Shown here one piece after another: positions 16,573 through 31,167 of a stretch of DNA of 51,430 bases; the first letter of the stretch is position 1, and every line of letters starts with the position of its first letter. The translations under genes were made by a program, and so were the position numbers. The stretch comes from Candidatus Roizmanbacteria bacterium RIFCSPLOWO2_01_FULL_37_12 (GTDB lineage: Bacteria; Patescibacteriota; Microgenomatia; UBA1406; GWC2-37-13), in assembly GCA_001789645.1 (NCBI GenBank), contig MGAG01000010.1, positions 87,170-138,599 of the forward strand, in the 5' to 3' direction. Below the pieces are notes generated by a model, which saw only the letters and a list, made by a program, of their open reading frames with translations, did no database searches and was not told where the DNA came from.

Positions 16573-16629
16573 GATATTTGTAATACGAATGTTACGAATC
16601 TTTATATGAATGATGCAAATATACTAATT
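16573..16629. repeat. Left arm of an ATTCGTA-type inverted repeat flanking the GxxExxY gene
   Basis: An AT-rich arm of about 50 bases with repeated ATTCGTA/TACGAAT units. Its reverse complement matches the arm at 17023-17072 at most positions, and the elements at 17552, 18467 and 31047. It ends just before the GxxExxY stop codon. Confidence 0.65.
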
Positions 16630-17016
16630 CTATTCATTAGAGTTCGGATTCAATATTCTTTTAGGACTTAGATATATAGATCTGAAGTTTACAAGTATTG
16701 CTAATTTTTTATTAAGAATTGAAAGGTATCTACGTGTTTGAAAATAGTCTTCTTTAGTAATGATCTTTTTGGCTTTAATTTCTATAATAATTTTACCTCC
16801 AACTAAAAAATCAACTTTATTTCTACCTTTAAATTCACCTTCAAATCCGATTGGTATTATCATTTCTCTCTCATAATCTATTTTTAATTTCTTGAAGTTA
16901 TTTTCAATTGAATCTGCATATTGTTTCTCACTACAATATCGTCCCAATTCATTATGAGTCTTATAAAGAACTCCAGTAATCCTGTAAGAAAGCTCGGGAT
17001 AGAAAATTTTTGCCAT
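16630..17016 (-). CDS. GxxExxY-family protein, PD-(D/E)XK nuclease-like
   Basis: A 128-residue member of the GxxExxY family, a small protein group with a restriction-endonuclease-like fold. Seen are the N-terminal LSYRITGVLYKTHNELG helix, the signature region (GRYCSEKQYADSIE) and the core VDFLVGGKIIIEIKAKK, which supplies the D...E-x-K catalytic pattern. Such proteins are widespread in environmental bacteria and their function is not established. Here the gene is flanked by inverted copies of a roughly 50-base repeat found without cargo at three other places in the window, so it may be mobile. It sits downstream of jag. Confidence 0.85.
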   Translation of the reverse strand: MAKIFYPELSYRITGVLYKTHNELGRYCSEKQYADSIENNFKKLKIDYEREMIIPIGFEGEFKGRNKVDFLVGGKIIIEIKAKKIITKEDYFQTRRYLSILNKKLAILVNFRSIYLSPKRILNPNSNE

Positions 17017-17022
17017 TAAGGA

Positions 17023-17072
17023 AAGATTAGCATATTCGTGGCATTCGTATATTCATTAGTATCATTCGTATT
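17023..17072. repeat. Right arm of the ATTCGTA-type inverted repeat flanking the GxxExxY gene
   Basis: This arm begins 7 bases upstream of the GxxExxY start and runs to the stop codon of jag (17071). It contains three copies of CATTCGTA/ATTCGTG and is an inverted copy of 16573-16629. Confidence 0.65.
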
Positions 17073-17544
17073 ACTTACCTTCCTCTTCTGTTTTCTTAGG
17101 AGACACCAACAGTTGTCTGTCTCTACCCTCGCCTACAGAATATGAAGTCAGGTCCGGGTAAGTCTTTGCAATATACTCGTGTACTATCTTTCTTTCATAG
17201 GAAGAAAAAGAACGAAGCGGCACTTCGCGGTTTTCTGCCTTTACCCTCTGCGCAAGATCTTCGGCAATCCCCTCCAGTCTCTCAACCTGTTTTTCGCGGT
17301 AATCATTCACATTAAGCAGAAGATCGATAGGTTCGCCGAATTTTTTATATAAAATGACTTCCAGTATCTTCTGTAAAGCCCGGATTGTCTCTCCGTGCCG
17401 GCCAATAACCGTGGGAGCATCCTCTTCTGTCTTAATGACCACGTGAAATACTTCTTCCTCTTGTGTTACCTCAATCTCGAATTTATCGATCATCTTTTTT
17501 AATATCTCTTCCGTTTCTGATTTTATAGTTTTTAGTTTATCCAT
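17071..17544 (-). CDS. jag: KhpB/Jag-type RNA-binding protein (KH plus R3H)
   Basis: A 157-residue RNA-binding protein that in other bacteria works with KhpA and is encoded behind yidC. The KH domain is seen around VIGRHGETIRALQKILEVI, and the R3H domain at the C-terminus has the signature R-x-x-x-H (SSYERKIVHEYIA), then SVGEGRDRQLLVSP. There is no separate Jag_N domain; a short helix replaces it. The ATG at 17544 is preferred because an earlier in-frame ATG lies in the repeat at 17552-17652. Order rpmH-yidC-jag is the ancestral one. Confidence 0.92.
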   Translation of the reverse strand: MDKLKTIKSETEEILKKMIDKFEIEVTQEEEVFHVVIKTEEDAPTVIGRHGETIRALQKILEVILYKKFGEPIDLLLNVNDYREKQVERLEGIAEDLAQRVKAENREVPLRSFSSYERKIVHEYIAKTYPDLTSYSVGEGRDRQLLVSPKKTEEEGK

Positions 17545-17551
17545 AAATATT

Positions 17552-17652
17552 TGATACGAATAATACAAATTTTAACGCGAATCTACTAATATGCGAATAA
17601 AATCAGAATTAGTATATTCGTAGATTTGCATATTATTCGTAGATTCGTATCA
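17552..17652. repeat. ATTCGTA-type inverted-repeat element between yidC and jag
   Basis: A 101-base element with perfect 10-base ends (TGATACGAAT and ATTCGTATCA) and imperfect internal pairing around a central GAATTAGTATATTCGTA. It begins 7 bases upstream of the jag start and ends 2 bases from the yidC stop, filling the gap almost exactly. Confidence 0.75.
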
Positions 17653-18466: not shown

Positions 18467-18576
18467 ATAATGCGAATGCTACGAATGAAAAATGCAAATG
18501 ATACTAATTAAGCCAATAAAACCTATATTAGAATAATACGCGGCATTTGCATAAAGATTCGTATCATTCGTATTAT
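18467..18576. repeat. ATTCGTA-type inverted-repeat element between rpmH and yidC
   Basis: About 110 bases; the ends (ATAATGCGAATGCTACGAAT and its near-complement at 18557-18576) match at 18 of 20 positions. It occupies the place where rnpA normally lies, and the rpmH stop codon falls inside it. Confidence 0.7.
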
Positions 18577-18718: not shown

Positions 18719-18790
18719 TGTCATTCCCATGAAAATGGGAATCTATTTAAATTAATTAACTTCTGGATTCCCGCTTTCGCGGGAATGACA
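18719..18790. repeat. Pair of REP-like palindromes between valS and rpmH
   Basis: Two palindromes in opposite orientation: ATTCCCAT-gaaa-ATGGGAAT (18723-18742) and ATTCCCGC-tttc-GCGGGAAT (18767-18786), each with a GTCA/TGAC flank and joined by an AT-rich spacer. The layout is that of bacterial REP pairs. The second copy encodes the last residues of ValS. Confidence 0.8.
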
Positions 18791-30347: not shown

Positions 30348-31037
30348 TTATTTCCCAAATCTTCTTTGACGCAAAGAATAATCACGTACTGCCTTCTCTA
30401 ATTCATTAGCGCTAAAATCGGGAAAAAATAGATCTGAAAAATATAGCTCGCTATATACGCTCTGCCAAGGTAAAAATCCTGAAAGTCTTTTTTCTCCTCC
30501 GGTTCTGATAATTAAATCTGGATCTGGAATCCCTTTCGTATCTAAGAAATTACAAAATTTGTCTGAGTTTAAATTCTGAATTCTGAATTCTGAATTCTGA
30601 ATTCTTTTTACTGCTCTTATAATCTCTTCTCTTCCTCCATAATTTAAAGCAAAAACTACAGTCATTTTTTTATTATTTTTTGTTTGTTCTAAGCTTTGTG
30701 TAATTAAGTCTTGAATGTCCTTAGGAAGTTTTTTGAGATTACCAATCATCGTCATCCTAACTCCCTTTTTTTTAAATTCTTTTATTTTATTTTTTAAAAA
30801 AAACCTGGTTAAATTTAAAAGCCTGTCAACTTCATTTTTAGTCCTTTTTTCTAAATTTTCTGTAGATAGTGCCCAAAAAGTAAAATACTTAACACCTAAA
30901 TTACCTGCTTTTTCTAATAAATCCGGGAGATTTTTTTCGGCTGCAAATCTATGTCCCTGATAAGTCGGAAGCCCTCTCTTTTTTGCCCACCGCCGATTAC
31001 CGTCCGGGATAATTGCAATATGAGTTGGAACATTCAT
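30348..31037 (-). CDS. uppS: Undecaprenyl diphosphate synthase (cis-prenyltransferase)
   Basis: Makes the C55 lipid carrier for peptidoglycan and surface glycans. Motifs are clear: IIPDGNRRWAKKRG with the catalytic Asp, YFTFWALSTEN, FALNYGGREEI, IIRTGGEKRLSGFLPWQ and YSELYFSD. The length (229 residues) is normal even though a heptamer tract (30573-30605) inserts RIQNSEFRIQN into the hinge region between GGREE and LDTKGIPDPD. The -10 box TATAAT, 8 bases before the ATG, overlaps the end of an inverted-repeat element. The gene is co-transcribed with the prenyl synthase. Confidence 0.95.
   Translation of the reverse strand: MNVPTHIAIIPDGNRRWAKKRGLPTYQGHRFAAEKNLPDLLEKAGNLGVKYFTFWALSTENLEKRTKNEVDRLLNLTRFFLKNKIKEFKKKGVRMTMIGNLKKLPKDIQDLITQSLEQTKNNKKMTVVFALNYGGREEIIRAVKRIQNSEFRIQNLNSDKFCNFLDTKGIPDPDLIIRTGGEKRLSGFLPWQSVYSELYFSDLFFPDFSANELEKAVRDYSLRQRRFGK
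30573..30605. repeat. Heptamer tract inside uppS
   Basis: Four full copies of ATTCTGA plus five bases of a fifth, 33 bases, in frame within uppS. Change by one unit would shift the frame; change by three units would add or remove seven residues. Confidence 0.9.
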
Positions 31038-31045
31038 AAATACAC

Positions 31046-31051
31046 ATTATA
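31046..31051 (-). promoter_or_regulatory. -10 element of uppS, at the edge of a repeat element
   Basis: TATAAT (31051-31046) lies 8 bases before the uppS ATG and overlaps the outer end of the inverted-repeat element at 31047-31167, so the element may supply part of the promoter. Confidence 0.5.
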
Positions 31052-31167
31052 ATACGAATGATGCAAATCTTTGTGCGAATGATACGAATATACTAATACT
31101 GATGTCTATAATCTGAATTAGCATATTAGCGGTATTAGCATTTTTCATTCGTAGCATTCGTATAATA
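31047..31167. repeat. ATTCGTA-type inverted-repeat element upstream of uppS
   Basis: Left arm ATAATACGAATGATGCAAAT, right arm CATTCGTAGCATTCGTATAAT, with AT-rich pairing modules such as ATACTAAT and GAATTAGCATATTAG between. It belongs to the same family as those around yidC, jag and the GxxExxY gene. Both outer ends contain TATAAT-like sequences. Confidence 0.7.

Follow-up and report, generated by a model that had tools for sequence, protein, structure and literature searches.

Why should a small gene for a nuclease-like protein sit between the arms of an inverted repeat whose arms recur nearby, joined to each other without a gene? Annotations in many bacterial phyla include GxxExxY genes, for which no role is known, and a tie to a mobile element would give them a testable function. 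We addressed the question in the window (the whole stretch of 51,430 bases analysed here, taken from a genome of 1.34 Mb in 41 contigs, our own genome G000), in relatives of this genome and in genomes of other phyla.

A GxxExxY gene bracketed by inverted unit arrays

The gene (16630..17016, minus strand) encodes a GxxExxY protein of 128 aa of the PD-(D/E)XK type (PF13366), as assigned by profiles, alignment and predicted fold. Its ORF scores 78.3 bits against TIGR04256 GxxExxY (curated cut-off 35) and 83.6 bits against PF13366 PDDEXK_3 (cut-off 22), above the cut-off in both cases. Two outer arms, given on the plus strand, enclose it: an array of TACGAAT-variant units beside the 3' end of the gene (16580..16628) and an inverted array of the same units beside its 5' end (17026..17074). 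A first-pass annotation of this DNA had described inverted arms of about 50 bases, and we confirm them at 49 nt, 78% complementary and 397 nt apart. The jag stop codon (17071-17073) falls inside the second arm. Folding of the 511-nt gene-bearing stretch is unremarkable as a whole against dinucleotide shuffles (z -1.3). The place 3' of jag is also that of the gene-bearing copy in G002 and G004, two genomes of the same genus, so the window's gene-bearing copy has long been static.

Three gene-less palindromic copies in the window lie between yidC and jag (17552..17652), between yidC and the next upstream gene, some 4 nt away from the start codon of yidC (18467..18576; the gene beyond is a short basic ORF, by eye rpmH), and upstream of a minus-strand gene at 30348-31037, by eye uppS (31047..31167). 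These copies, claimed by the same annotation, are real, and their folding stands out from that of dinucleotide shuffles (z -3.2, -5.4 and -3.0, respectively). Each arm consists of about five TACGAAT-like units spaced by roughly 8–12 bp (by eye), with a short loop between the arms, and the gene does stand in the place of that loop, as had been proposed. The unit ATTCGTANYATTCGTA occurs 9 times in the window with at most 2 mismatches (0.21 expected), and 22 times in the own genome with at most 1 mismatch, against 0 for the reversed control. At 18719-18790 the end of valS is overlapped by a palindromic repeat of another type (ATTCCCGC...GCGGGAAT); the valS ORF ends in SFPRKRESRS and spans only positions 2-716 of an 863-position profile.

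The protein has a predicted Cas4/RecB-like nuclease fold

The window protein carries the motifs E30, D69, E79-x-K81 and Q93xxxY97. Its PD-(D/E)XK catalytic residues are invariant in a 7-protein alignment that includes it, and E30, D69, E79, K81 and Q93 are present in 96/96 aligned proteins, found with a scan pattern that left out these five positions. One protein (L060, with one in-frame stop) was dropped from alignment A3.

An AlphaFold2 model built from 39 sequences reached a pLDDT of 93.2. The closest structure is SSO0001 (4ic1; VIA Z 9.2 over 101 residues, Foldseek 2.3e-3), which we take to be a Cas4 protein and which is the only match with Z of at least 8 among the fold families listed by VIA-align; matches of lower Z include restriction enzymes, Cas4 proteins and Holliday junction resolvases. 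Judged on this model, the GxxExxY protein has a Cas4/RecB-like fold, and the predicted window protein combines the Cas4/RecB core with ExK and QxxxY. T7 endonuclease I was considered as the nearest sequence and rejected: it was the only match when profiles were compared with solved structures, at E 0.046 and 0.098.

Gene-less palindromes outnumber genes in the genus

A covariance model built from 12 copies of the own genome was run on six genomes of the genus. It recovered gene-bearing copies and 70 gene-less palindromes, a set that takes in weak matches (E up to 0.01) and one palindrome (L196:1516) that adjoins a gene-bearing copy. The gene-less palindromes were distributed as 17 in G000, 4 in G001, 21 in G002, 13 in G003, 10 in G004 and 5 in G005. 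Two unit words, CGAAT and CGGAT, are used in the genus, with a single word running through most copies (words sorted by simple count, two mixed copies set aside). By eye, many copies end 2–5 nt from a start codon, and the sites include core operons (ftsA/ftsZ, rpoB/rpoC, yidC/jag).

GxxExxY was found in 4/6 genomes of the genus and 15/72 of the family, and the own genome has one GxxExxY gene for its 17 gene-less copies. The first-pass annotation had counted arms distributed independently of the gene as evidence against its reading, and palindromes do persist in G001 (98% complete, 4 palindromes) and G003 (92%, 13 palindromes), where we found no GxxExxY match.

Palindromes also vary in form. 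One in contig C23 of the own genome (L023, 1495-1560) is a half-size derivative of 66 bp that has lost most of one arm. Some palindromes harbour repeats of other palindromic families, for example the GTCATTCCCGCGAAAGCGGGAATC type, within their loop or arms (L165, L166, L167, L177), with further nested cases at L174 and L175 and at L187, L203 and L208.

Inverted arrays flank GxxExxY genes in many phyla

A scan of named genomes yielded 80 GxxExxY loci from many phyla. With 200-bp flanks, the inverted flank match exceeded all 100 shuffles at 68/93 testable GxxExxY loci, and z was above 4 at 62/93; control ORFs of the same loci had inverted flanks in 5/265 cases (50 shuffles each). The loci are partly non-independent (L041/L044 are copies, L068/L070 vertical relatives). 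L024 was dropped as the same locus as L030; L085, L086, L088 and L096 were too short for the flank test; the partial matches L119, L122 and L123 were excluded from every GxxExxY flank test, and L120 from the tree and the cross-pairing. The expectation that GxxExxY genes are consistently bounded by arms thus held at 68 loci, and at 25/93 the flanks did not exceed every shuffle. Most of the 16 weakest loci still have, by eye, unit arrays on one or both sides.

The arms of GxxExxY loci have a period of 9–10 bp, and unit words vary by locus (ACGCGGAT, CACGAAA, CACGGAA, CACGAAT and others, by eye). Arrays of the CACGRA unit were present in 12/12 named non-CPR genomes (102 matches, against 4 for the reversed pattern), listed at both close, gene-less spacings and gene-sized ones. 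When arms were cross-paired between loci, an arm's own partner was best in only 21/92 cases and in the top 5% in 56/92, which indicates that different loci have some unit words in common. Plasmids seldom carry GxxExxY (8 of 72,556 records). We conclude that an element reading much broader than the one first proposed, reaching beyond the window to many phyla, is well supported.

S23 genes carry arrays of a different period

In the same genus, genes for the 23S rRNA intervening-sequence protein S23 that are located outside rRNA also lie between inverted arrays, with a period of 7 (14) bp. Their flanks exceeded all shuffles at 25/34 loci (L145-L154, L232-L255). Matches to PF05635, the four-helix-bundle family of S23, number 4–10 per genome in the genus. 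The unit period was absent 1 kb away from both GxxExxY and S23 genes. Since it differs with the family (9–10 bp for GxxExxY, 7 bp for S23), the period follows the gene family; that it does so within the same genomes is the strongest ground we have for ascribing the reading of the units to the protein and not to the host.

Copies, empty sites and in-frame insertions point to mobility

One Sumerlaeota genome holds two copies (L041/L044) that are 96% identical over 462 bp in unrelated flanks. The identity spans the gene with its two arms and extends for about 14 bp beyond them on one side. Comparison of the two copies by eye revealed no target-site duplication; the outer TA of the element could be an end or a duplication.

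At 9/97 loci, gene and arms are inserted in frame and on the same strand inside another ORF, an arrangement that was not seen for the window copies. The hosts, named by eye from translations, are lepA (one site in five genomes, and another site), recG and two glycosyltransferase-like genes. The five insertions that share a lepA site group into a single clade (94/95). In all 6 genomes with an insertion in lepA, the interrupted gene is the only lepA and keeps its reading frame, other EF matches being taken as paralogues by ORF length and identity, and lepA is uninterrupted in 8/10 genomes searched in the family of G072.

In the five insertions of that clade (L037, L038, L039, L040, L045), the junctions bear inverted duplications of adjoining host codons. 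The resulting stems (about 6–18 bp, with small loops) are absent from uninterrupted lepA, and even within this single clade they vary from genome to genome. They may mark a snap-back copying step. Host-derived junction hairpins were rejected as a general feature, with 13 upstream and 10 downstream among 91 loci and 3–7 per side in controls.

One site was found in three states: with the whole gene in G004 (L026), with a gene remnant inside a gene-less copy in the own genome (L011) and gene-less in G002 (L197). The L011 interior resembles the end of the gene (AYLNPK vs AYLHPK, by eye), and the match is significant against L029 (1/500 shuffles) and the window gene (5/500), not against L026 itself (250/500) or L028 (71/500). 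A remnant where G004 has a whole gene is what the expected route, from gene-bearing to MITE-like, would leave.

The proposal that MITE-like and gene-bearing forms belong to one family is supported by the co-duplication, the empty sites, the remnant and the arms around most GxxExxY genes in other phyla. Empty sites in relatives do exist, both as uninterrupted lepA and as vacant positions at rpoB/rpoC in G004 and ftsA/ftsZ in G002. Arms at identical positions in all relatives, which would have spoken against mobility, were not found: sites are often shared between species, not by all. Sequence comparison gives good support to a mobile element made up of gene and arrays, with the gene-less copies as its derivatives.

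Sites are kept or re-used and arms pair poorly with their own partners

We scored four intergenic sites in up to six genomes. The 23 resulting cells comprised 9 with this type of palindrome, 12 with other inverted elements (by eye) and the 2 empty ones. Across the cells L256-L278 (rpoB/rpoC, ftsA/ftsZ, L008 and def sites), different species of the one genus carry different families of inverted elements.

Orthology, defined by protein matches on both flanks, gave 44 cross-species pairs of gene-less copies, a count to which neighbouring gaps of the yidC region contribute extra pairs. Tallied by hand, mean identity was about 0.60 at shared sites vs 0.61 at unshared ones, and unit words differed in 19/44 pairs. 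As identity at shared sites equals background and words differ so often, sites are kept or re-used and their occupants replaced or rewritten. Within-genome gene conversion was tried as an account and rejected, since likeness within genomes was barely above that between genomes (0.711 vs 0.692; 0.779 vs 0.731).

Arms from the same copy complement each other less well than arms taken from different copies. The hairpin was rejected as the conserved feature: own arms paired worse than swapped arms in 2000/2000 permutations, for both unit words. Mutual pairing, or an intact hairpin, is therefore not what selection holds, which counts against a simple hairpin-substrate model. Long perfect palindromes are unstable in bacteria, and this instability would explain the weak complementarity of own arms. 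The first unit spacing differed by one base between arms in 36/45 measurable copies of 71, and a Fisher test on the spacing table, with the two words pooled, was not significant (p 0.77).

A probable mobile palindromic element and its alternatives

We consider it probable, with some reserve, that these loci represent a small mobile palindromic element in which a GxxExxY nuclease gene lies within inverted arrays, is copied jointly with them and is deleted to give MITE-like forms. The features it draws on can be read from the sequences themselves: the anatomy and its generality, co-duplication, empty sites, in-frame insertions, one case of gene loss and intact catalytic residues. Under this reading, a gene for a Cas4/RecB-like PD-(D/E)XK nuclease, bracketed by inverted arrays of a 9–10 bp word, would be copied together with its arms; the new copy would land at a gene junction or, in frame, within a permissive loop of a protein gene. 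The GxxExxY protein, as candidate enzyme of mobility, would recognise the unit arrays and make a cut, or process and trim one, and host repair or replication would then use the break to copy the element in. Palindromes of MITE-like form, left when the gene is deleted internally, would persist, and other elements of this sort could take over their sites.

A different account, which we consider unlikely but serious, would make GxxExxY a parasite of palindrome centres, the palindromes being moved by host replication errors or by another transposase. A homing endonuclease in an intron offers a parallel for a gene invading an existing palindrome centre. PD-(D/E)XK homing enzymes do exist (3r3p is among the fold matches), palindromes outnumber genes and persist without them, and the loops also harbour other palindromic repeats (L165, L166, L167, L177). 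Against it, gene and arms were duplicated jointly in L041/L044, the resolved case (L011) runs from gene-bearing to gene-less, and the unit period follows the gene family. Y1 transposases, the candidate other mobiliser, are present in all six genus genomes (28 matches), yet none of the 20 loci examined among these has even two units in 60 bp. It is rather improbable, by our estimate, that the palindromes are domesticated elements whose retention at operon junctions serves RNA processing, termination or the start of translation, their mobility being incidental or over. Such a role would fit the 44 cross-species pairs with both flanks in common, the many copies close to start codons and the sites in core operons; however, shared sites are no more alike than unshared ones and often hold different words, the 23 cells divide into 9 with this type, 12 with other inverted elements and 2 empty ones, and own arms match no better than swapped ones. 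That a host repair nuclease gene and common repeats merely share an intergenic preference is very hard to credit, even with 25/93 loci failing to exceed all shuffles, given the contrast of 68/93 loci with 5/265 control ORFs, the duplication of the whole unit in L041/L044 and the in-frame insertions with arms on both sides inside genes.

Relation to known systems

The literature searched (in part as excerpts) names GxxExxY in passing in PMC8934634 and PMC12085832 and nowhere else, and PF13366 in PMC9756366. It yielded none of the exact unit strings and nothing relevant on S23 or nuclease-bearing repeats. As described in these excerpts, IVS, RPE and REPtrons/TIRtrons do not match the GxxExxY plan as a whole.

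Individual features do recur. The protein shares its fold and the residues E, D, ExK and QxxxY with Cas4, RecB and lambda-exonuclease nucleases, and differs in being a single small domain in the context of arrays. Eukaryotic foldback elements have long inverted ends of tandem short units; their proteins are different, and the GxxExxY elements are bacterial. We know of no RPE (Rickettsia palindromic element) that carries a nuclease gene. RPEs are palindromic mobile DNA in frame in protein genes, and the excerpted text of PMC10969869 describes no gene-bearing relative. The GxxExxY elements resemble them in their in-frame insertions inside protein genes, and would give orphan palindromes, among them those inserted in frame in genes, a counterpart that carries a gene. 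In REPtrons and TIRtrons, genes for the tyrosine transposases RAYT and TIRYT are flanked by REP or TIR sequences that also occur as lone short palindromes (excerpts of PMC3733652). An enzyme gene flanked by repeats that are also found alone is common to both systems; the enzyme there is HUH/Y1, whereas here it is PDDEXK_3, the arms consist of unit arrays, and none of the 20 Y1 loci examined carries such arrays.

The intervening sequences (IVS) with S23 (PF05635) come close, with a small gene inside complementary arms; they are sporadic, and the excerpted text of PMC4990558 calls them selfish, of unclear function and origin. The S23 protein is a four-helix bundle and its units are of 7 bp, whereas GxxExxY is a nuclease with units of 9–10 bp; an IVS is located in 23S rRNA, from which RNase III excises it, whereas the copies in the window are found between protein genes and their gene belongs to PF13366. 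We tentatively raise the possibility, itself doubtful, that the GxxExxY elements form one branch, and the S23/IVS elements another, of a single class of mobile DNA that has gone unrecognised. Its encoded protein would read a short repeated word of its own period, and nuclease-triggered template-switching replication, not any known transposase, would spread the inverted array. If so, the in-frame lepA copies, with their inverted host duplications at the junctions, would be footprints of the template-switching reaction. The tie of GxxExxY genes to a mobile palindromic element may also offer a common frame for 23S rRNA intervening sequences.
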